From Methanobrevibacter millerae (GTDB lineage: Archaea > Methanobacteriota > Methanobacteria > Methanobacteriales > Methanobacteriaceae): 64,000 nucleotides of DNA. Shown here piece by piece: positions 18,476-35,006 of the stretch. Position numbers and translations under genes: made by a program. Location: the NCBI RefSeq assembly GCF_900103415.1, contig NZ_FMXB01000006.1, positions 1-64,000 of the forward strand, read 5' to 3'. The notes under the pieces are model-generated. The model was given only the letters and a program-made list of their open reading frames with translations, was not told where the DNA came from and did not search any database. Each line of letters begins with the position of its first letter. The stretch's first letter is position 1.

Positions 18476-18524
18476 CATATAAACTTTTTAATTTTAAAAA
18501 AAGAGAGATGTAAGGTGTTTATTC
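18476..18524 (-). repeat. Direct repeat copy A, promoter-upstream element
   Basis: This stretch and 18975-19026 match nearly base for base, from the TATA box through AAAAAAAGAGAGATGTAAGG and TGTTTATTC on the plus strand. Here it forms the promoter of the small exported protein gene. A degraded hairpin partner (TAAATAT near 18531-18537) lies next to it. Confidence 0.85.
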
Positions 18525-18605: not shown

Positions 18606-18733
18606 AAAAAACTAGTTTGAATAAATGATTCAATGTCTACAACATGCAGGGCATGTTGGAACAATTAGACATTGAATAATCGTTGCAAAATAGAATTTAA
18701 TTCTATCCAAATGAAGGAATCCTTAAACTCCAT
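18606..18733 (-). ncRNA. Predicted structured small RNA, copy 1
   Basis: No reading frame is apparent. Read on the minus strand, the 5' domain is an 11-bp helix (18723-18733 with 18690-18700) with two G-U pairs. The 3' domain has an 11-bp helix (18667-18677 with 18628-18638), an internal bulge AATTGTTC, then an 8-bp helix CAACATGC/GCATGTTG (18651-18658 with 18640-18647) closing a 3-base loop. TTTATATA on the minus strand (18755-18762) is centred 25 bases before the first helix base, the right archaeal distance. A T6 run at 18606-18611 would end the RNA, giving about 128 bases. Confidence 0.65.
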
Positions 18734-18754
18734 GAAAAAATTTGATTTAAATAA

Positions 18755-18768
18755 TATATAAACATATC
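18755..18768 (-). promoter_or_regulatory. BRE/TATA for small RNA copy 1
   Basis: The minus strand reads AGATATG-TTTATATA. The TATA centre at about 18758 predicts a start at about 18733, exactly the outer base of the first helix. Confidence 0.65.
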
Positions 18769-18812
18769 TTTTTAAAAATAAATGATAAAAACATAAGAAA
18801 AATAGCTTGACT

Positions 18813-18840
18813 AAAAAATTGTGAATCAAAAGATTCACAA
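18813..18840 (-). terminator. Intrinsic-type terminator of small RNA copy 2
   Basis: The minus strand shows TTGTGAATC-TTTT-GATTCACAA followed at once by six T. Copy 1 has only the T run, so this hairpin is specific to copy 2. Confidence 0.75.
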
Positions 18841-18955
18841 ATAGTCAATCCAACATCTACAACATGCCAAGGCACATTGGAACAATTAGACATTGGAAAA
18901 ATATTACCCTTAATAGAATTTAATTCCTCCAAAAGAGGGAATCCTTAAACTCTAT
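18813..18955 (-). ncRNA. Predicted structured small RNA, copy 2
   Basis: A diverged duplicate of the RNA at 18606-18733. The same three helices occur: 18945-18955 with 18913-18923, 18888-18896 with 18850-18858, and 18872-18879 with 18860-18867, and the bulge AATTGTTC is identical. The helix differences give G-U or U-G pairs on the minus strand but A-C mismatches on the plus strand, which fixes the RNA strand. The 3' end has a strong terminator: a 9-bp hairpin (18819-18827 with 18832-18840) and T6 (18813-18818). Expected length is about 143 bases. No family match is known to me. Confidence 0.7.
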
Positions 18956-18974
18956 GAAATAATATGAATAGAAT

Positions 18975-19026
18975 CATATATAAACTTTATTATTTTTAAA
19001 AAAAGAGAGATGTAAGGTGTTTATTC
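18975..19026 (-). repeat. Direct repeat copy B, promoter of small RNA copy 2
   Basis: Second copy of the element at 18476-18524. It contains the minus-strand promoter AATAAAG-TTTATATA (TATA 18977-18984), centred 25 bases before the 5' helix of small RNA copy 2, and the T-rich tail of the preceding RNA. Confidence 0.8.
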
Positions 19027-19205
19027 GCACGTAAACACCTTGTGGTTTGGAAAAATTTTGGCAGAAAAATTTTCCGATGTTTTGAATTAGAAAATTGTGA
19101 GAAAACTAATTCAAACAAATTTAATTTTGGAGATTGTATTATTTTCGACTAATAATGTTTGAAGCAATGTGATTTTTTAGGTTGTCCTAAACTTTACATC
19201 GCTAG
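18998..19205 (-). ncRNA. Predicted third small RNA, possibly metal-regulated
   Basis: A minus-strand transcript is predicted from the promoter at 19227-19241 to the T7 run at 18998-19004, about 200 bases. I see no open frame with a ribosome site in it. Hairpins on the way: TTTGAATTAG/CTAATTCAAA (19081-19090 with 19106-19115), a GGAAAA/TTTTCC stem (near 19049-19074), and a 10-bp hairpin AAGGTGTTTA/TAAACACCTT (19014-19023 with 19032-19041) just before the T run. It is not similar to the two tandem RNAs. It could instead be a regulated leader that reads into them if the terminator leaks. Confidence 0.45.
19176..19191. promoter_or_regulatory. DtxR/MntR-type box, downstream of the third RNA start
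   Basis: TTTAGG-TTGT-CCTAAA is a perfect 6-4-6 palindrome of the form bound by DtxR, IdeR and MntR family metal sensors. It lies about 14-29 bases inside the predicted transcript, where a bound protein would block start or elongation. Confidence 0.5.
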
Positions 19206-19226
19206 TTATAATGTAGTTTGAACTAG

Positions 19227-19241
19227 TATATAAATGTTTCT
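19227..19241 (-). promoter_or_regulatory. BRE/TATA of the third small RNA
   Basis: The minus strand reads AGAAACA-TTTATATA (TATA 19227-19234). Predicted start is near 19205. It lies midway between two metal-regulator-like palindromes. Confidence 0.55.
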
Positions 19242-23287: not shown

Positions 23288-26200
23288 CTACCTTTTCTTT
23301 AAAATATTTAAATTTGAAAATGCAATGGAAATCAATGAAATGACAATCAGCAATCCTAATGGAATTCCTGTCTTTTTCATTTCCACTTTCACGCAAGCAT
23401 CGGATTTGGTATCTGACGGCTCAGTACTGCTTTCATCCGGAACAGATGGATTGACAACACTATCAGTAACATTTAAAATGACTTCTGCGAAATTGTTTCC
23501 TGAGTCATAATCGAAAGTGTCTGAAGTTACTGAAACCCTGTTGGCAATTGAACCTTCTTTTGCGGCACGTGCGGTGATATTGAGAATTGCCTTTTCACCG
23601 TTTTTCAGGTAATCAATATGCCATATGTTGTTTTCAACATCATATTCTCCTGCAGTAAGTGAATAAGATTCGAAATCGAGGGAATCGTCCATGATTTCAC
23701 TTACAAGGATGTTTCTGGCAGTGTCCGGACCGTTATTTATGACCACAATTGAAAATGTAATCAAATCACCGACATTATAGTTTGTCTTTGGGGAAGTCTT
23801 TATAATGGATAAATCGCTTGCAGGAGCTACGTTAACTGATTTTTCAGCCTTATTGTTTGAAGGCTTGTAATCGTACTGGTCTCCCTTAACGACTGCAACA
23901 TTATTGAATTCACCGGTTTTATCTGCACGGGATATGATTTTTAACTCCTTGCTTTGACCAGAAGCAAGACTTCCAACATTCCACAATCCTCCAGCAGAAT
24001 AGCTTCCATCGCCTTTGGATGAGACATATGTCAGTCCTTCAGGCAACAAATCATTAACAACGACACCTGTTGCGTCACTTGGACCGTTGTTTTTAACGAT
24101 TAATGCCCATTCCACAAGATCGTGGTAATTAATGTCCGTATCGTTAACTGATTTGATTATTTCCAAATCGCATGCTTTTGCAACGTTTATTATAGCATTG
24201 TCATGATTATTATCCGGATTGTAATCATATTCTGTTGCATTTGCACTTGCGACGTTTTCAATTTTGCCGATGCCCACTACTCTCGTAACAATTTCCAAAG
24301 TGGCTACCTCATTGGCTTCAAGACAGCAGAATTTCCATATTCCATCCTCATAATAACCTTTGCTAGCATCATAACTTATTAATTTAAGGTTATTTGGAAT
24401 GACATCAGTTATTTCTATTCCGTTTGCCTTGTCTGGACCATTGTTCCTGATTGTTACCGTCCATTTGACTAAATCATTGTAATTCGGTGCTGTAGCATTT
24501 ACCTTCTTGTTAATTTCCAAATCAACTGCAGGATCAACGATAATTGACTTATTGGCGTCATTGTTGGATTTATTGTAATCGTGCTGATTTCCAGTAACGA
24601 TCGCTACATTCGTGAAATTGCCCGTTTTAATGATTTTAGTAACAATTTCCAATGTAACTTCTTCACCATTATCCAGATTACCGATAACCCATGTTCCGTT
24701 AATGTAATGTCCTTTAGTTGCAGTTGAACTGATTAACTCGAATTCTTCGCCTAACACTTCGCTTACGTTGACATCCGTAGCCTCATCAGGGCCTTTGTTT
24801 TTAACAACCAAAATCCAAGTGATAATTTCACCGTATTTAGGATTTGAATCGTTTACGAGTTTTATGATTTCCAAATCTGCAGATGCAGGAACATCAACGG
24901 ATTCGGAAGCGTTGTTATTGGACTTGTTGTAATCGTATTCATCGCCTGAAACATTAGCATCGTTAATTAATACACCGGTTGCATTAATATAAGTTATAAT
25001 TTCCAGCAGCTTTGATGAATAAGGATTCAAGGTTCCAATAACCCAGTTTCCATTACTGTAATTTCCATCTTCACTCTCAATTATCAGGCCTTCAGGCAAT
25101 AAGTCATTAACGACCACATTATGGGCAGCATCAGGACCATGATTGTTAACGATTAATGTCCACAATACGGAGTCGTGATAATGAGGATTGGAGTTGTTTA
25201 CAACCTTGATTATCTCCAAATCACATGCCAGAGCAACATCAACGCTTTGATTGACGACATTGTTTGTTTTGTTGATGTCATACTCATTTCCGCTTACGTT
25301 AGCCACGTTGTTGATTAGGCCTGTTTCAATTACTTTTGTTATTATTCTTAAACTGGCTGATTCGCCGCTGGCTAAAGTGCAAATAGACCAAATTCCATCT
25401 GAATAACTGCCAAGAGATGCGTTATGGGATATGTAAGCCAGTGCATCCGGCAGGATATCACTCACATTAACGTCAGTTGCATTATCCGGACCGTTATTCA
25501 TAACAGTTAATGTCCACTCTATTTCATCCAAGTAATTAGGAGAGATATTGTTAACTGCCTTGATAACTGATAAATCGGCCGCTTTTGGCACGTCAATTGT
25601 CTTGGACGCATTATTGTTAGTCGGATCATAATCAAATTCATCACCAGTGACGTTAGCCACGTTAATTAATGAGCCGGTTGTGTTCACCAAAGTAATGATT
25701 TCGAATGATTTTAACTCGCCTGCATCCAGGGAACCGATAACCCATTTACCGTCGGAATAATTGCCTGTAACAGATTTGATAACCAGACCTGAAGGCAATA
25801 CATCACTTAAAGTAATATTATGAGCAATGTCAGGACCAATGTTCGCAACAATTAATGTCCATTTGATGACGTCGCCGAAATTAGGAGCCGTCACGTTAAC
25901 GGCCTTAATTACAGATAAATCAGCAGCATTTGGAACATTAATGTCTTCGGATGCATTATTGTTGCTTGAGTCATAATCATATTCTTTAGCTGTAACATTA
26001 GCCATATTAGTTAATGAACCTGTAGCATTAACTAAAGTAATGATTCTTAAAGTTACTGATTTACCACTAGCCAAACTGCCAATGCTCCAGACACCATCAG
26101 AATAACTGCCGACAGACGCATTATGAGATACATAAACCAATGATTCAGGCAATACATCACTCACATTAACGTCATTAGCCATGTCAGGACCGTTATTCCA

Positions 26201-29200
26201 AACGGTTAAAGTCCACTCAACAAATTCTAAGTAATTAGGGTTAGTATTGTTAACACTCTTAATAACTGATAAATCAGCTGATTTTGGAACATTAATGGCT
26301 TCAGAAGCGTTATTGTTAGCTAAATCATAATCGAATTCATTAGCAGTAACGTTAGCTGCATTAATTAATAAACCAGTCTTATTAACTAAAGTAATTATCT
26401 TTAATGTTTCAGATTTACCGCTTGCCAGACCGCCAACAGACCAAATGCCGTTTGAATAACTACCAACAGACGCATTATGGGACACATAAACCAATGATTC
26501 AGGCAATGCATCACTTACATTAACGTCATTAGCCATATCCGGACCGTTATTAACAACAGTTAATGTCCACTCCACACAATCTAAATAATTAGGAACATTA
26601 TTGTTAACGGCCTTATTAATTGACAAATCAGCCGCATCAGGAACATTAATAGTTTCAGATGCATTGTTGTTTGCATAGTCCGGATCAAATTCCCTTGCCA
26701 TAGTTGATACCTTATTGGCAATTGAACCTGTCTTATTGACTAATGTAGTGATTTCAAATGTTCTTGATTCACCTACAATCAATGATGAGATTATCCAGCT
26801 GCCGTCAATATAATTTCCGGTTGTTGATTTTAAAACCAGACCTGCAGGCAACATCTCATTTAATACAATGCCGTTTGCAACGTCCGGACCATTATTAATA
26901 ACAGTTACAGTCCATTTTACGATTTCACCATAATTAGGACTGGTATTGTTAACCGTCTTAGTCACTTCCAGATCAGCTGCCTTTGGAACGGTAATTGAAG
27001 CGTCATCCACATTGTTTATCTCATTAATGTCGAATTCGTTTGCGTTAACGACTGCAACATTCCTTATAGTGCCTGTTTTATTTACTTTGGAAATAATAGT
27101 CAGAGTTTCTGTGTGAACGCTTGCTAAAGTGCCGATATTCCAGACCCCATCAGCGTAACTGCCAACAGAAGCATTGGAAGATATATAAATAAGGCCTTTT
27201 GGCAACACATCACTGACATTAACGCCGGTTGCAGCGTCAGGACCATTATTAACAAGAGTTAATGTCCAGAGCACATAATCGCCGTAATTAGTTGCCGTTA
27301 CGTTAACTGCCTTATCAATTGATAAATCAGCTGCCTTTGGAACATCAATGGCTTTAGAAGCATTATTGTTGCTTAAATCGCAATCCACTTCATCACTTGT
27401 TACATTAGCTACGTTAATTAATGAACCGGTTTTATTAACTGAAGTAATGATTTCAAATGACTTGGATTCGCCTGCATTCAATGATTTGATAACAAATTTG
27501 CCATCGGCATAATCGCCAGAGACTGACTTGACAATCAAACCTGAAGGCAATACATCGCTTAAAACAACATTATTTGCCTTATCCGGACCGTTATTGCTGA
27601 CAATTAATGTCCACTTAATTAGATCCATGTAATTTGGAGCAGTATTGTTGACAAGCTTAATGACTGATAAATCAACCGTATCAGGAACATTAATGGCTTT
27701 AGAAGCGTTATTGTTGCTTAAATCACGATCGAATTCATTTCCAGTAACATTAGCTGTGTTAATTAATGAACCAGTTTTATTCACCAAAGTAATTATTTTT
27801 AAGGTTGCGGATTTGCCGCTTGCTAAACTGCCAATGTACCATTTGCCGTTTGAATAATCACCTGAAACTGATTTAATAACCAAACCGGAAGGCAATACGT
27901 CACTTACAGTAACTTCCGTTGCGGTATCAGGACCGTTATTAACAACAGTTAATGTCCACCAGATTTCGTCAAGATAATTAGGAGCAGTATTGTTAACGTC
28001 CTTGTTAATTGACAAATCGGCTGCTTTTGCTACATTAACCGTTTTGGAAGCGTTGTTGTTTGAAGGATTATGGTCGTATTCACGTCCGTAGACTGAAACG
28101 GAATTGGTAATTGAACCTGTCTTATTAACCAATGTGGTGATTTCAAAGCTTCTTGATTCACCTGAAGTTAATGATGAGATAGTCCATTTGCCGTTCATAT
28201 AGTTTCCATTTGTTGATTTTAAAACCAAGCCGGCAGGCAATAAATCATTTAAAACAATGTCATTTGCCATGTCCGGACCGTTATTCTTAACCGTTACTGT
28301 CCATTTAATGACATCACCGAAATTAGGATTAGTCTTGTTAACGTCCTTAGTTACTTCCAGATCAGCCGCATTCGGAACGGTGATTGAAGCATCGTCCCTA
28401 TTGTTTGATTCATCGATATCCACTTCATTTCCCTTAACGCCGGCGATATTTTTAATATTGCCGGTTTTATTGACTTTTGTAACGATATTTAATGTTGCTG
28501 TTTCGCCGCTTGCCAAATCACCGATATTCCAGAGACCATTAGCATAACTGCCAATAGAAGCACTGGATGAGCGATAAATTAAGCCTTGTGGCAAAACATC
28601 ACTGACATTAACGCCAGTTGCAGCATCAGGACCATTATTAACAATCGTTAATGTCCATGAAATCAGATTGGCGAAATGAGGAGTGGTATCGTTAACCGTT
28701 TTAGTTATGGATAAGTCACTTGCCTTTGCGGCATTGATAGTGGCGTCATCCACATTATTTGACTTATCAACATCGTATTCATTACCAAACACACTTGCAA
28801 CATTTTTAAAGCTGCCGGTTTTATTTACTTTTGAAACAATAATTAATCTGGCGGATTTTCCACTATCTAAATTGCCGACATTCCAAACTCCGTTGGAATA
28901 GCTTCCTACAGACGGAACGGATGACTGATAAACTAATCCTTCAGGCAAAATATCGCTGACATTAACGCCGGTTGCAGCGTCAGGACCGTTATTCTTAACT
29001 GTTATCGTCCATCTCACCACATCTCCATAATTTGGAGCGGTATTGTCTACATCCTTTGAAACTGACAGGTCTGTAGCTTTTGCAACATTAACTGATTCAT
29101 CATCCCTATTGTTTGATTCATCAATGTCATATTCATTGCCGGAAACAGAAGCAACATTTTCGATAGTGCCAGTTTTGGCAACTTTAGAAATGATATTTAA

Positions 29201-32200
29201 TGTTGCTCTCTGGCCGCTTGCCAAATCACGGATATTCCAGATACCATTAGCATAACTGCCAACGGATGATGTGTATGACTGGTAAATCAAGTCTTCAGGC
29301 AAAACATCATTGACATTAACGCCGGTTGCAGCGTCAGGACCCTTATTAACAACAGTTAATGTCCACATTATCACATCCCCATAATTAGGAGCAGACTCGT
29401 TAACTGCCTTGTTAATTGATAAATCGGCTGCTTTTGCTACATCAATAACTTTAGAAGCGTTGTTATTTGCCGGACTAGGATCGTATTCTCGTCCGTGTGC
29501 TGAAATCTGATTTGTTATAGTTCCGGTCTTATTAACTAATGTTGTGATTTCAAAGCTTCTTGATTCGCCGACAATTAATGATGCGATTACCCAACTACCG
29601 TCCACATAATTTCCGGTTGTTGATTTTAAAACCAAACCGGCAGGCAATACGTCATATAAAACAATACCGTTTGCAGCGTCAGGACCATTATTCTTAACCG
29701 TTACGGTCCAAGTTACGACATCTCCGTAATTAGGAGCTGTATTGTTAACGTCCTTGATTACTTCCAAATCGGCCGCATTCGGAACGGTGATTGAAGCATC
29801 GTCCCTGTTATTTGATTTGTCGATGTCGTATTCGTTTGAGCTTACGCTTGCAACATTTTTGATAGTGCCTGTTTTGGCAACTTTTGAAATGATATTCAAG
29901 GTTGCTGTCTGACCGCTTGCCAAATTACTGATAGTCCAAACCCCGTTAGCATAACTGCCAACGGATGGAGTTGAGAACTGATAAATCAAGCCTTCAGGCA
30001 AAACATCACTGACATTAACGCCAGTTGCAGCGTCTGGACCCTTATTAACAACAGTTAATGTCCAGACTACAGAATCACCATAATTAGGAGCAGATACGTT
30101 AACGACCTTTGAAATAGCTAAATCCACAGCATTTTCAATATTAATGGCTTTTGATACATTATTATTTGCCATATTGTAATCATATTCATTACCCTTGACA
30201 CCAGCAGTGTTAATTACATCATCAGTCGTATTAACCAATGTAACGATTTCCAAATTAACTGACTGGCCAGCATTTAAAGTTCCTATTGTCCACATACCGT
30301 TACTGTAATCACCAGTTGTGCTTTTTACTATCAAGCCGGAAGGAATGACATCATTTACCACAACTCCGGTTGCAGCATCCGGCCCGTTATTTTTAACCGT
30401 CAATATCCACCTGATATAATCCCCATAATTAGGATTAGTGTTATTTACGCTTTTGGAGATTTCCAAATCAGCTGCATCAGCAACAGTGATTGAAGCATCA
30501 TCCATGTTATTGCTTTCATCAATATCATATTCATCACCTTTAACGCTTGCAGTATTTTTGATTGTGCCTGTTTTAGCAACTTTTGAAATGATATTTAAAG
30601 TTACTGAGTCTCCATTGGTTAAGTAACCGATAGCCCACACTCCATTGGAATAAGTGCCAACGGAAGCTGAATAGGACTGGTAAACTAAACCATCAGGCAG
30701 AATGTCATTAACGTTAACGCCGCTGGCATCATTAGGACCATTATTTTTAACCGTTATTGTCCATTTTACAATAGTTCCATAATTAGGAGCAGTATTATTG
30801 GCTGTTTTAATTATGGATAGGTCACTGGCTTTAGCCACATTAATGGTCTTGGATGCATCATTATTTTCTGGATTAGGATCGTGTTCCCTACCATATGCGG
30901 AAGCCTTATTGGTAATGGAACCTGTCTTATTAACCAACGTAGTGATTTCAAAGATTCTTGATTCACCTACGGTTAATGATGCGATAGTCCATTTACCGTT
31001 CATATAGTTTCCGGTTGTTGATTTTAAAACCAGGCCTTCAGGCAAAATGTCAGTTAAAACAATGTCATTTGCCATGTCCGGACCGTTATTTTTAACGGTT
31101 ACAGTCCATTTTATTTCATCTCCAAGATTAGGATTGGCATTGTTAACGTCCTTAGTTACTTCCAAATCAGCCGCATCACGAACATTTATTGCTGCTTCGT
31201 CCCGGTTATTGCTTTCATCAATATCATGTTCAACTGCTGAAACGACAGCGACATTCCTGATAGTGCCGGTTTTATCGACTTTCGTAACGACATTTAAAGT
31301 TACCGTTTGTCCACTGGCCAAACCTCCAATATTCCAAATTCCATTGGCGTAACTGCCGATAGATGGAGTGGAAGACTTGTAAATCAGACCTGAAGGCAGA
31401 ACGTCATTGACATTAACGCCGGTAGCATCGCTAGGGCCGTTGTTCCTGACAGTTAATGTCCAGGTAACGGAATCTCCGTAATCAGGATTTGCATTATTTA
31501 CTGTCTTGGATACGACGAGATCAACGGATTTTTCACATGAAACGCCTTTTGAAGCGTTGTTGTTTGCCATATTATAATCATGTTCATTGCCATGAACATT
31601 AGCAGTGTTTACAACAGTGCCGACAGTATTAACCAAGGTAATTATTTCCAGACTGACTGATTGGTCAACGCCTAAACTTCCGATTGTCCATTTTCCATTG
31701 CTGTAATCTCCAGTAGTGCTTTTTACTATCAAGCCGGAAGGAATGACATCATTTACTACAACTCCGGTTGCAGCATCCGGCCCGTTATTTCTAACCGCCA
31801 ATACCCATTTAATGTTCTCACCATAATTAGGATTCGTATTGTTTACGCTTTTGGAGATTTCCAAATCGGCTGCATTTCTCACATTGATTGTAGCGTCAGC
31901 ACGGTTATTGCTTTCATCAATATCCGGTTCATTTCCTGAAACGACAGCGGCATTTTTAATGGTACCGGTTTTACTGACTTTTGTAACAATATTTAACGTT
32001 GCCGTTTGACCGGAAGCCAATCCACCAACAGTCCAAACCCCATTGGCGTAACTGCCGACAGATGGAGTGCAAGACTGATAAGCTAAGCCGTCAGGCAATG
32101 CATCGTTAACATTAACGCCGGTAGCGTCGCTAGGACCGTTGTTCCTGACAGTTAACGTCCAGGTTATAGTATCATCATAATCAGGATTGGCGTTATTAAC

Positions 32201-34867
32201 CGTTTTAGATATTGTCAGATCAACTGAATTTTCACCAGAAATGCTTTTTGACGCATTGTTATTTGCCATATTATAATCATGCTCGTTACCTTTAACGCTG
32301 GCAGTATTTACAACAGTGCCGACAGTATTAACCAAAGTTACGATTTCAAGTGTTTTTGACTGGCCAACGCCTAAAGTTCCAACAGTCCACTCGCCATTGC
32401 TATAATCGCCTGGGGTACTTTGAACAACCAATCCTGAAGGAAGGACATCACTTACAACAACGCCTGATGCGTCGTCAGGACCGTTATTAGTAACTGTCAA
32501 GGTCCATTTGACTTGAGATCCGTAATCCGGATTGGTATTGTTAACGTTTTTTGAAATGGCCAGGTCCGCAGCGTTCGGAACCGTAATCTTGTGTGAATCC
32601 TGATTGTTTGTCATGTCAGTATCCTTTTCGGTTGAAACGACGTTTGCAGTGTTTGTTATTTCACCGGTTTTCGTTACCTGAGTCGTAATCTGAAGGCTTG
32701 CTGATGCGCCACTTGCCAAATCACCGATAGTCCAAACCCCACCGGAATAACTTCCGACAGATGGAGTTGAATACTTTAAGACCAGCCCGTCAGGCAAAAC
32801 ATCCGTAACATTAACGCCGCTTGCGTCGTTAGGCCCGTTATTTTTAACGTTCAATGTCCAAACGACCATATCGTTGTAATTGACATTGGATTTGTCGATT
32901 GTTTTTGTAATTGACAAGTCCACTTTAGGCAATACCGTGAAAGTCGTCTGATTCCTGATTGCCTTGTAATATGTATCTTCAAAGTGGTTTGCGGTTACTA
33001 TGTATTTTCCAGGTTTTAAATCGTTTAATACATCATTTACTTCACCCAAATAGCTTGAGCGTAAGGATCCTGAATAAACTACGGTACCGTCCTCATGAAC
33101 TACCGTCAGGAATACTTCAATATTGTATTCGCGAGAATCCTGATAGATTTTACCGTCATTCGTTGCTCCCAAATGAGGAACCTCGTCATTTACAAATATA
33201 TTAGTATTCGGAGCAGCATTATAGATTGCGTTTGAAACAATTAGATTTCCATAATCCCCTATATTGTTTCCACCAATGATTACAGCACCGAATTCTTCGC
33301 TTTCACCATAATAAATGTCTTTTGCATAAACAGGCAGAGCATATACCCAAGCCTGATTTTCAACCATCGTATTGTTCTTGATATTCAGATAAGTGCTCGT
33401 TTTACTGTAGTAAACTGCACTTCCGTTTCTTGCTACATTATACTTGAACAGGTTGCCTTGCACAGTATCCCAGGAACCGTTGATATAAATAGCTCCTCCC
33501 AATCCGTCATCATTGACTTTTGGATTTGCAATAGCAACGTTTGAGATGAATTTTGATTTAAGGACACTTGTAAAGCTTCCGTTTGAATAGATTGCACCAC
33601 CATTGTGTTCAGCACGATTATTCGAGAAGTCTGATCCGTAAATATTCAGGAAATTTGCTTCAACAAATGCTGCACCGCCGTCAATTGATGCGTAATTGTT
33701 GGTGAAATTTGAATAATAAATTGAAATTTCGGTACCTTCCAGTTTTACTGCACCGCCGTAAGGAGCGGAATTTGAATCAAACTTACAGTTATTAATCATT
33801 AAATGCATTGCAGTTACGTCCATATTGGTTATTGCACCGCCGTAGTCATTTGCAGTGTTTCTGATGAATGTACAGTTATTTATTGAACCTGAACAATGAG
33901 AAGTCAAGGCTCCTCCGAAATCTGCTGAATTGCCTTCAAACAGACAGTTGTCATAAGTAACTCCATCCCTAAGACAGCTTGCACCACCGTGAGACAGTTG
34001 TGTGCCTGTAGCTGAAATTGCCTTATTGTTCAAGAATTTACAGTCCTTAATTAAGGAATCTGCAATAATATTTTTCTTTCCTACCTGCATAGCACCTCCA
34101 AATGTACTTCCACCGGATTTGTCGTAAACCCAATTCGATTCGAATATACAATTAATTATCCGGTTATTATACCCGTAAGCTCCGATGGCTCCAGCGGCGG
34201 TTGTTGCATGATTTCTCGTAAAGTTACAATTTTCAATCAAAAGATTGCGTCCGCGAGACGGGAAATCATCCGAATAATAATCCGTGTAGATTGCACCACC
34301 ACCTGCCGTGGCATAATTGTCTTCAAACAGACAGTTCGATATGGTCACGTTTTCACCATAAATGTAAATCGCTCCACCGTAATGTCCATTACCGTTCTTA
34401 AATACCAGATTCGAAAAGCTTGAGCCAGCTCCGGTTCCTTCAACAACGAAAATGCTTGACAGATTCTTTCCATTAAGTATTCCATTGGATGTTGAAGTGA
34501 AAGTTATCTTTTTATTTACTAAAATTTGAGTTTCTGCACGGTCAGTCGTGAACTCGCCGTTGAGATAAAGCGTGTCTCCGGATTCCAACTCATATAGGAT
34601 ACATGATTGAATATCTGAAAAAGTTCCTCCAGATAACGTTTTACTATTTCCAGCCGAAAGTACGTCTTGTTGTTGAGAATTTCCTAGTTTATCTTCATCA
34701 ATTGCATTAATGCCATAGTTACCGTTGTCAATTGTGTCGATGCCACAATTTCCATTGCTTTCATCCATTTCCATTGCAGGAACAGCATTCACTGCAAATA
34801 GAAGCAATAGAATGAAGCAAAGGGTAACTAAAAAGTTTTTTCTAATAGCTATCTTATTTTTAAACAT
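23288..34867 (-). CDS. Giant adhesin-like surface protein with 27 DUF11 repeats
   Basis: A 3859-residue exported protein. Residues 1-35 are a signal peptide (basic start, LVTLCFILLLLFAVNAVPA). About 60-560 form a right-handed parallel beta-helix with many GGAIY and NNYA-type rungs (FEDNYATAGGGAIYTDYY). About 560-650 is an Ig-like link. Then come 27 DUF11 repeats of about 117 residues, each starting DLxIxKxVN and containing WTLTVxNNGPD. A short acidic linker, one membrane helix (PLGLLIVISLISIAF) and ILKKR end the chain, so it is held in the cell membrane and spans the wall. Many N-x-S/T sites suggest glycosylation. The start at 34867 has AAGGAG upstream; an ATG at 34891 places that site inside the gene. 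Role is inferred: attachment to host, syntrophic partners or protozoa. Confidence 0.93.
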   Translation of the reverse strand: MFKNKIAIRKNFLVTLCFILLLLFAVNAVPAMEMDESNGNCGIDTIDNGNYGINAIDEDKLGNSQQQDVLSAGNSKTLSGGTFSDIQSCILYELESGDTLYLNGEFTTDRAETQILVNKKITFTSTSNGILNGKNLSSIFVVEGTGAGSSFSNLVFKNGNGHYGGAIYIYGENVTISNCLFEDNYATAGGGAIYTDYYSDDFPSRGRNLLIENCNFTRNHATTAAGAIGAYGYNNRIINCIFESNWVYDKSGGSTFGGAMQVGKKNIIADSLIKDCKFLNNKAISATGTQLSHGGASCLRDGVTYDNCLFEGNSADFGGALTSHCSGSINNCTFIRNTANDYGGAITNMDVTAMHLMINNCKFDSNSAPYGGAVKLEGTEISIYYSNFTNNYASIDGGAAFVEANFLNIYGSDFSNNRAEHNGGAIYSNGSFTSVLKSKFISNVAIANPKVNDDGLGGAIYINGSWDTVQGNLFKYNVARNGSAVYYSKTSTYLNIKNNTMVENQAWVYALPVYAKDIYYGESEEFGAVIIGGNNIGDYGNLIVSNAIYNAAPNTNIFVNDEVPHLGATNDGKIYQDSREYNIEVFLTVVHEDGTVVYSGSLRSSYLGEVNDVLNDLKPGKYIVTANHFEDTYYKAIRNQTTFTVLPKVDLSITKTIDKSNVNYNDMVVWTLNVKNNGPNDASGVNVTDVLPDGLVLKYSTPSVGSYSGGVWTIGDLASGASASLQITTQVTKTGEITNTANVVSTEKDTDMTNNQDSHKITVPNAADLAISKNVNNTNPDYGSQVKWTLTVTNNGPDDASGVVVSDVLPSGLVVQSTPGDYSNGEWTVGTLGVGQSKTLEIVTLVNTVGTVVNTASVKGNEHDYNMANNNASKSISGENSVDLTISKTVNNANPDYDDTITWTLTVRNNGPSDATGVNVNDALPDGLAYQSCTPSVGSYANGVWTVGGLASGQTATLNIVTKVSKTGTIKNAAVVSGNEPDIDESNNRADATINVRNAADLEISKSVNNTNPNYGENIKWVLAVRNNGPDAATGVVVNDVIPSGLIVKSTTGDYSNGKWTIGSLGVDQSVSLEIITLVNTVGTVVNTANVHGNEHDYNMANNNASKGVSCEKSVDLVVSKTVNNANPDYGDSVTWTLTVRNNGPSDATGVNVNDVLPSGLIYKSSTPSIGSYANGIWNIGGLASGQTVTLNVVTKVDKTGTIRNVAVVSAVEHDIDESNNRDEAAINVRDAADLEVTKDVNNANPNLGDEIKWTVTVKNNGPDMANDIVLTDILPEGLVLKSTTGNYMNGKWTIASLTVGESRIFEITTLVNKTGSITNKASAYGREHDPNPENNDASKTINVAKASDLSIIKTANNTAPNYGTIVKWTITVKNNGPNDASGVNVNDILPDGLVYQSYSASVGTYSNGVWAIGYLTNGDSVTLNIISKVAKTGTIKNTASVKGDEYDIDESNNMDDASITVADAADLEISKSVNNTNPNYGDYIRWILTVKNNGPDAATGVVVNDVIPSGLIVKSTTGDYSNGMWTIGTLNAGQSVNLEIVTLVNTTDDVINTAGVKGNEYDYNMANNNVSKAINIENAVDLAISKVVNVSAPNYGDSVVWTLTVVNKGPDAATGVNVSDVLPEGLIYQFSTPSVGSYANGVWTISNLASGQTATLNIISKVAKTGTIKNVASVSSNEYDIDKSNNRDDASITVPNAADLEVIKDVNNTAPNYGDVVTWTVTVKNNGPDAANGIVLYDVLPAGLVLKSTTGNYVDGSWVIASLIVGESRSFEITTLVNKTGTITNQISAHGREYDPSPANNNASKVIDVAKAADLSINKAVNESAPNYGDVIMWTLTVVNKGPDAATGVNVNDVLPEDLIYQSYTSSVGSYANGIWNIRDLASGQRATLNIISKVAKTGTIENVASVSGNEYDIDESNNRDDESVNVAKATDLSVSKDVDNTAPNYGDVVRWTITVKNNGPDAATGVNVSDILPEGLVYQSSVPSVGSYSNGVWNVGNLDSGKSARLIIVSKVNKTGSFKNVASVFGNEYDVDKSNNVDDATINAAKASDLSITKTVNDTTPHFANLISWTLTIVNNGPDAATGVNVSDVLPQGLIYRSSSASIGSYANGLWNIGDLASGETATLNIVTKVNKTGNIKNIAGVKGNEVDIDESNNRDDASITVPNAADLEVTKDVNKTNPNFGDVIKWTVTVKNNGPDMANDIVLNDLLPAGLVLKSTNGNYMNGKWTISSLTSGESRSFEITTLVNKTGSITNSVSVYGREYDHNPSNNNASKTVNVAKAADLSINKDVNNTAPNYLDEIWWTLTVVNNGPDTATEVTVSDVLPSGLVIKSVSGDYSNGKWYIGSLASGKSATLKIITLVNKTGSLINTANVTGNEFDRDLSNNNASKAINVPDTVDLSVIKLVNNTAPNYMDLIKWTLIVSNNGPDKANNVVLSDVLPSGLIVKSVSGDYADGKFVIKSLNAGESKSFEIITSVNKTGSLINVANVTSDEVDCDLSNNNASKAIDVPKAADLSIDKAVNVTATNYGDYVLWTLTLVNNGPDAATGVNVSDVLPKGLIYISSNASVGSYADGVWNIGTLASVHTETLTIISKVNKTGTIRNVAVVNANEFDINEINNVDDASITVPKAADLEVTKTVNNTSPNYGEIVKWTVTVINNGPDVANGIVLNEMLPAGLVLKSTTGNYIDGSWIISSLIVGESRTFEITTLVNKTGSIANKVSTMAREFDPDYANNNASETINVPDAADLSINKAVNNNVPNYLDCVEWTLTVVNNGPDMANDVNVSDALPESLVYVSHNASVGSYSNGIWSVGGLASGKSETLKIITLVNKTGLLINAANVTANEFDYDLANNNASEAINVPKSADLSVIKSVNNTNPNYLEFVEWTLTVWNNGPDMANDVNVSDVLPESLVYVSHNASVGSYSDGVWSIGSLASGKSVTLRIITLVNATGSLTNMANVTAKEYDYDSSNNNASEDINVPNAADLSVIKAVNVTAPNFGDVIKWTLIVANIGPDIAHNITLSDVLPSGLVIKSVTGNYSDGKWVIGSLDAGELKSFEIITLVNTTGSLINVANVTGDEFDYDPTNNNASKTIDVPKAADLSVIKAVNNISPNYLDEIEWTLTVMNNGPDNATDVNVSDILPDALAYISHNASLGSYSDGIWSICTLASGESASLRIITKVIETGLINNVANVSGNEYDINKTNNVVNQSVDVALACDLEIIKVVNNSNPHYHDSVLWTLIVNNHGPDAAHNVVVNDLLPEGLIIESEDGNYSNGNWVIGTLNPYSSKLLEIITYINATGVLINDANVSGDEYDYNKSNNNASESVDVPASADLEIIKLVNDSNPKYGEIITWILVVKNKGPDEATDVNVSEVLGEEFELISSTATKGHYINGTWVIGNLDNGEEVTLEIVTKIIKTGNFTNVAIVTGNQHDYNKSNNDANKSIIVDPAVDLEINKKVNATAPNYNDLVKWTVTIRNNGPDKANGIEITDVIPNNLKLISYDASKGYYEDGIWKFCCLEANEVATLEIVTRVVGIGKIENVASANATEYDYNPDNNHDNAIINVAKACDLEIIKSVNDTDINYHDLVEWALIVKNNGPSDATGVVVNDLLPEGLTYVSSKGDGSYSAGGLWNVGSLASGQSKELKIISRADKTGEFNNVAVVKGDQYDYKPSNNKAEKSVNVAPASDLSIIKTSPKTNYNVGDLITFSIVVINNGPDTARNILVSEIMDDSLDFESYSLTAGEYDVENNIWHIDYLKNGEKAILNITARAAKEGSIANRVSVTSDTFDYDSGNNFAEVILNVTDSVVNPSVPDESSTEPSDTKSDACVKVEMKKTGIPLGLLIVISLISIAFSNLNILKKR
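23470..32930 (-). repeat. Array of 27 DUF11-coding repeats, about 350 bp each
   Basis: The DNA repeats with a unit near 350 bp through most of the adhesin gene. Units fall into subtypes. One subtype, marked by NDIVL or NGIVL and SFEITTLVNKTGSI with GREYDPNP, occurs at units 6, 10, 14 and 18, a spacing of exactly four. Units 4-5-6-7 match 8-9-10-11 in order, which points to duplication of four-unit blocks. Units near the C terminus (23-27) are more diverged. Confidence 0.85.
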
Positions 34868-35006
34868 TTTTTGTCTCCTTGTCGAGGACATTGATAACCA
34901 CCATTAATTAACAAAAAGCTATTAATAAGCAATTAACCTTTTTATTTTAACCTAAATCTTGAAAATAATCATCATAATTTAAAATTTATGCTAAATTCGA
35001 TGAATT

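Follow-up and report, generated by a model that had tools for sequence, protein, structure and literature searches.

Two tandem structured RNAs of Methanobrevibacter millerae likely belong to an antitoxin-type RNA family of Methanobacteriaceae paired with a small membrane peptide

The Escherichia coli type I toxin-antitoxin loci ZorO-OrzO, ShoB-OhsC and TisB-IstR combine a small hydrophobic protein with a neighbouring, non-overlapping sRNA that has limited complementarity to the 5'UTR of the mRNA. OrzO has 18 nt of complementarity to its mRNA, of which 15 continuous nucleotides suffice (PMC3919570), and the duplicated loci of OrzO and OrzP show self-specific pairing. In systems of the hok/sok type, a small membrane peptide and an antisense RNA are combined with an mRNA whose 3' region folds back onto the Shine-Dalgarno sequence. 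According to a 2025 paper, type I systems were known from three bacterial phyla only before the cyanobacterial case reported there; this case, msoT1/msoA1 of Microcystis, is a recent extension beyond the classical phyla (PMC12390103). In archaea, sRNA162 of Methanosarcina mazei targets cis- and trans-encoded mRNAs via two domains (PMC3510493). We searched the open-access literature (5.4 million papers) by phrase and found no archaeal type I system there, the restriction to open-access papers being a real limit.

The family described here resembles the E. coli loci in having a small hydrophobic peptide and a non-overlapping neighbour sRNA that is complementary to only a short part of the mRNA 5'UTR, and its pairing is specific to each locus, as for OrzO and OrzP. 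It differs from them in that the sRNA is encoded downstream on the same strand and not divergently, and in that the RNA has two pairing sites, a linker and a bulge. Like the hok/sok type, the archaeal module has a predicted 3' fold-back, a small membrane peptide and an antisense RNA; unlike in that type, the antitoxin gene does not lie opposite the mRNA, and the complementarity is limited to 12-19 nt and a loop contact. sRNA162 regulates ordinary genes and has no paired small hydrophobic peptide gene, whereas msoT1/msoA1 is bacterial. Pfam, NCBIfam and Rfam searches revealed no sequence relation to the E. coli type I loci.

The window analysed here is a 64,000-nt stretch of the M. millerae genome (contig NZ_FMXB01000006.1). 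Its minus strand carries at 18606-18957 two diverged copies of one unit made up of a promoter and a structured RNA. The copies are alignable over about 175 nt, from TTTATATA through the T-run, with an identity of 79-80% (BLAST); about 20% of the positions differ. Each unit consists of a TTTATATA box, a structured block of about 130-145 nt beginning 25 nt later and a T-rich end; from the centre of the box to the first base of stem 1 (18733 and 18955) the distance is 25.5 nt in both copies. In copy 1, the TATA box TTTATATA (18755-18762), found likewise upstream of almost every homologue, is followed by an sRNA at 18606-18735 that has its predicted start at about 18733-18735 and ends in T6 (18611-18606). 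It contains stem-loop 1 (18690-18733; loop UAAGGAUUCCUUCAUUUGGAUAGA, complementary to Shine-Dalgarno/start regions of the family), the linker UUUUGCAACGAUUAU (18675-18689), whose counterpart in complete modules is complementary to the mRNA of the adjacent gene, and stem-loop 2 with a AAUUGUUC bulge (18626-18677). Copy 2 has the same box at 18977-18984 and an sRNA at 18813-18957, comprising stem-loop 1 (18913-18955), stem-loop 2 (18847-18895) and a 3' end formed by a 9-bp hairpin and T6 (18840-18813). Alignment and folding identified stem 1, lower stem 2 and upper stem 2 in unchanged order in both copies, with an identical bulge, AATTGTTC. The minus-strand fold reaches -35.3 kcal/mol in copy 1 (z -4.8 against shuffled sequence; plus strand -30.4) and -43.1 kcal/mol in copy 2 (z -5.1; plus strand -32.5). 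This anatomy, shown by computation, agrees with an earlier note made from the sequence alone: its claims of two tandem structured minus-strand RNA copies (coordinates, alignment and folds), of three common helices in the same order with an identical bulge, of a promoter box 25 bases 5' of the first helix base, and of ends in T6 (copy 1) and hairpin plus T6 (copy 2) all held. We rejected the blocks as protein-coding, the only ORF being one of 61 aa that crosses copy 2. Identities as H/ACA RNA, C/D RNA or riboswitch were rejected by eye; the one-sided bulge and the adjacent target suit an antisense RNA better.

A DNA search found some match in 33 of the 67 genomes of the genus, and many of the matches were full length and started at the TATA box. 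As the earlier note had suggested, a covariance model was run against Methanobrevibacter genomes; trained on 30 sequences, both window copies among them, it detected the RNA in 34/67 genus genomes (E <= 0.01), with up to four per genome. The matching genomes are Methanobrevibacter, mostly ruminant-gut MAGs, and a single further genus of the family gave weak matches. With this homologue-built model, the window copies score 82.9 and 85.5 bits, both being part of the training alignment. Of the 780 stem cells in the 30 homologues, 766 are paired when the minus strand is read as the RNA, as against 698 for the plus strand. Paired cells make up 98.2%, compared with 31-43% in a slid register, and five stem pairs are changed on both sides.

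The stem cells of these homologues contain 74 G-U and only 6 A-C combinations, confirming the strand choice that the earlier note had made by this comparison. Selection on an RNA fold and not on a protein, also claimed there, is supported in about 50 homologues, and free change at paired positions, which would have refuted the claim, was not observed. The TATA box 25 nt 5' of the RNA is conserved in nearly all copies; independent promotion of the two RNAs, a further claim, is therefore supported by sequence in about 50 homologues, with transcription inferred from the promoters. The absence of a matching family was confirmed, as Rfam gave no match for the window region at lax thresholds or, at gathering score, for four sampled loci including three complete modules. 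The earlier note had proposed no function; the homologues supply a peptide gene and a co-varying antisense pairing.

Beyond the RNA unit, conservation reaches about 440 nt upstream, and flanking genes further out vary by genome. The modules are dispersed and multi-copy, lying at unrelated loci in different species, with some copies tandem or inverted. One locus (L209, G060:C31) has a tandem array of no fewer than two complete modules, in which three sRNAs follow each other at intervals of about 710 nt. The module had no match in phage records and the peptide none in IMG/VR. A viral origin of the sRNA was rejected, the single phage match of the region being a third RNA that neighbours the two copies.

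The upstream part of the module is a small gene consisting of a TATA box, a 5' hairpin, GGAGGAATCC and ATG + 31 codons. It encodes MSIQKKFWIGMLIYTIISWCLAFYIIWITYN and relatives, peptides of 31 aa with a single hydrophobic span (consensus MSIQxKFWIxMLIYTIIxWCLAFxIIWITYN). Coding selection was shown by computation, with a dN/dS of 0.24 and change mostly at third positions (17 distinct intact copies). An N-terminal extension from an upstream in-frame ATG was rejected because it is not kept at all loci; in some peptide genes at L146, L147 and L152 (genus g9), a good Shine-Dalgarno sequence is followed by what seems to be an ATT or ATA start codon. Pfam and NCBIfam returned only sub-threshold matches, the best being 0.0027 to DUF6126 for one of 16 members, besides 0.14/0.049 for the YmiA profile; these weak matches are to families of unknown or regulatory function.

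The linkage between gene and RNA was also shown by computation, using a genus-wide peptide-profile search and an RNA covariance search that were run independently. A peptide gene lies upstream on the same strand, at 96-198 nt (median 172), for 31 of the 51 sRNA matches (about 60%). Conversely, 31 of the 36 peptide matches, even those with E = 0.3, have a same-strand RNA 96-198 nt downstream, and with filters off three more gain one (34/36). Of the remaining two, one gene sits at a contig end, and the other match spans only 13 residues and is taken to be due to chance. The RNA thus accompanies every credible peptide gene, the contig-end gene excepted, and in the second genus it follows at the same distance in 7/7 cases. 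Twenty of the 51 RNA matches have no peptide match, a few of them being weak or at contig ends. Orphan RNAs at L042, L139, L144 and L172 adjoin remnants of peptide genes that have lost their 5' part by deletion, and in G009:C6 a TnpB-type insertion has taken the place of the 5' half of the peptide gene.

Full-length, unconstrained duplex prediction was too permissive, and we used comparisons of cognate and non-cognate pairs instead. The linker that joins stem 1 to stem 2 is highly variable; it is complementary, usually over 13-19 nt, to an equally variable mRNA segment directly 5' of the Shine-Dalgarno sequence. Examples are L156 (AATCTCATTTATCAAAAT, 18/18 Watson-Crick), L047a (AACACATCAAATTAAAG, 17 nt) and L140 (AATTTAATCTATTTTATAG, 19 nt). 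For 27 loci, the summed run length of linkers against their own mRNAs was 405; permuted partners gave 208 ± 13, with 286 as the best value, and none of 100,000 permutations reached the observed sum. Permutation tests ignore relatedness. This concern over common descent is largely answered by 11 loci chosen to be mutually distinct, picked so that non-cognate pairs never exceed 9, in which the cognate runs are 14, 10, 16, 17, 15, 17, 14, 14, 19, 6 and 18 compared with a non-cognate maximum of 9. Pairing of the linker is unclear at L142 (6 nt), and at L146 and L215 the runs are interrupted only. In the second genus, complementarity of 12-15 nt was found in 6/7 loci, with L215 as the interrupted case. 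The run lengths of the family are adequate, since 15 continuous pairs suffice in ZorO-OrzO (PMC3919570).

The bulge of the RNA pairs with the loop of the mRNA 5' hairpin over 6-12 nt. For 22 loci, the summed dG was -239.8, compared with -153.6 ± 12.0 for permuted partners (0/100,000). Where a locus deviates, both sides are changed: in the radical type of L074 (bulge UGUAUCAC, loop GUGAUACA), at L071 (CUACUCA with UGAGUAG), at L039 (CUACCUAAA with UUUAGGUAG) and at L047b, where an extra U in the bulge is matched by an extra A in the loop. Linker and bulge thus both co-vary, locus by locus, with the mRNA of their own neighbour, as shown by computation. In the consensus fold of the mRNA, the linker target is open, the bulge target lies in a hairpin loop and the Shine-Dalgarno sequence pairs with a segment of the 3'UTR. 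The 3'UTR between peptide gene and RNA terminates in its own 13-bp hairpin.

We consider it likely that the window blocks are antitoxin-type antisense sRNAs of a Methanobacteriaceae family that resembles type I toxin-antitoxin systems; their transcription, the toxicity of the peptide and its repression are inferred. A complete module runs along a single strand, from a TATA box and an mRNA through a structured 3'UTR to a second TATA box and an sRNA of about 130 nt, the mRNA comprising a 5' hairpin, a single-stranded segment, the Shine-Dalgarno sequence and the reading frame of a 31-aa single-span membrane peptide. The stems of the sRNA are conserved and would serve as its scaffold; its open parts vary and would serve as recognition elements. 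In the proposed model, first contact may be made by the bulge with the mRNA 5' hairpin loop, after which the linker would zipper onto the segment 5' of the Shine-Dalgarno sequence, so that ribosome loading would be blocked or the duplex exposed to cleavage. The 3'UTR may fold onto the Shine-Dalgarno sequence as well, and the peptide would be harmful if the RNA is missing.

Type I systems are expected to encode a small hydrophobic protein, usually of less than 60 aa, which the 31-aa peptide fulfils and which is absent beside the window copies. A neighbouring ncRNA gene with its own promoter is present according to sequence evidence only, separate transcripts being inferred. The RNA is antisense to the presumed toxin mRNA through linker and bulge (0/100,000 each, and in the second genus), and repression is inferred from the position of the pairing site just 5' of the Shine-Dalgarno sequence. 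A match to a named type I toxin family in Pfam or NCBIfam is missing. For toxicity there is only indirect support, from the retention of the RNA where the peptide gene is lost. The family behaves like type I, and its membership rests on inferred toxicity and repression. A type III (ToxIN) system was rejected; it requires an endoribonuclease and an upstream tandem-repeat RNA, and here a 31-aa span is followed by a single downstream RNA.

No peptide gene was found near the window copies, and comparison of their linkers with the family mRNAs gave no convincing match. The window RNAs are therefore orphans, as occur elsewhere in the genus; as part of the type I reading, they are likely antitoxin-type RNAs whose peptide genes are gone. 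A search with the copy 1 linker in its own genome, allowing up to 3 mismatches, gave no target above background, and a lost partner in the same genome was rejected on these background-level matches. A single complete module exists in the source genome, at C1:34517-35103 on a different contig. Its own cognate RNA pairs through the linker over 14/14 nt, and its peptide, MSIQMKFWMGMLIYSIISWCFAFTSFGLCISLD, carries a frameshift close to the C-terminus. The bulge of the window copies does not fit the mRNA of this peptide. In copy 1, complementarity of the stem-1 loop to Shine-Dalgarno/start regions of the family extends over up to 24 nt (20 Watson-Crick), and none of 1000 shuffles reached its match to the Shine-Dalgarno region of L046. 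Against the C1 module, stem-loop 1 of copy 1 has a run of 13 nt, and stem-loop 1 of copy 2 a run of 14 nt (13 Watson-Crick) with the Shine-Dalgarno/start of the genome's sole peptide gene (C1:34710); about 3% of shuffles reach each of these. Action of the window copies in trans on the C1 module through stem-loop 1 is possible and only weakly supported, less clearly for copy 2 than for copy 1.

Other explanations have to be weighed against this reading. The window copies could be decaying relics without a present function, only the C1 module being at work. They have no peptide gene and no matching linker target, and their model scores are lower (83-85 compared with 100-130 bits). Against decay, promoters, terminators and the three stems, the latter through G-U exchanges, are intact in both copies despite about 20% divergence, and stem-loop 1 of copy 1 fits family Shine-Dalgarno regions far above chance (0/1000 shuffles, L046); on balance we lean slightly away from the relic view. 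It is less likely, but possible, that the RNA keeps a non-toxic small membrane peptide with a regulatory or stress role at low levels. Toxicity is only inferred, non-toxic examples are common among small single-span proteins, and the weak database matches point to families of unknown or regulatory function. A harmful product, however, better explains dispersed multi-copy modules at unrelated loci, the constant presence of the RNA beside credible peptide genes and the repeated loss of the peptide gene with retention of the RNA.

That the second element is merely the 3'UTR of a single long peptide transcript, folding back on the 5'UTR in cis, appears unlikely to us. Both elements lie on the same strand with a fixed spacing of about 172 nt, and pairing in cis would co-vary equally; yet the TATA box 25 nt 5' of the RNA is conserved in nearly all copies, orphans and both window copies included, the RNA has a T-rich end, and the intervening 3'UTR finishes in its own 13-bp hairpin. 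Least plausible is a palindrome-bearing miniature mobile element with the fold as a by-product of inverted repeats. Dispersal at unrelated loci in different species and the tandem or inverted copies would suit such an element, but the strand-specific G-U pairs, the coding selection on the peptide and the two-site co-variation with the mRNA would not; common ends or target duplications were not noticed, without a systematic search for them.

Beyond the type I-like reading itself, a bolder one seems fairly likely to us, in which this would be the first archaeal type I family and would be widespread among gut Methanobrevibacter and in a sister genus. Its antisense RNA would act through two sites, with a specificity that diversifies from one locus to the next, and its recurrent orphan antitoxins may protect cells against related modules. 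If true, RNA-controlled toxins would extend to another domain of life and another membrane chemistry. About 30 natural pairs make the specificity readable from sequence, and the peptide might inhibit rumen methanogens. Co-variation between the unpaired parts of an sRNA and a neighbouring small gene offers a route to discovery.

Immediately upstream of copy 2, the minus strand of the window encodes at 18998-19235 an unrelated ncRNA with a TATA box (19234-19227), a fold of -39.2 kcal/mol (z -4.5) and a terminal hairpin followed by T7. It has no Rfam match, occurs in 62/67 genus genomes, often in several copies, and is far commoner than the antitoxin-like RNA. A copy lies beside a small membrane protein gene in the archaeal virus Caudoviricetes sp. 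vir323 (BK063679.1, L009; 3369-3554). In about 15 genomes, two convergent copies are found about 6-11 kb apart, and in all three cases inspected (L166, L167 and L168, in G060:C3, G062:C4 and G023:C88) a conserved set of ordinary genes lies between them. The 3' end of this ncRNA is duplicated (18485-18524 and 18987-19026; 40 nt, 95% identical) just 5' of the promoter of a 109-aa ORF, and the intergenic region has therefore grown by duplication. Further along the window, an 11.6-kb gene on the minus strand (23288-34891) encodes an adhesin-like surface protein of 3867 aa with repeated DUF11-like 'NNGPDxA' units.
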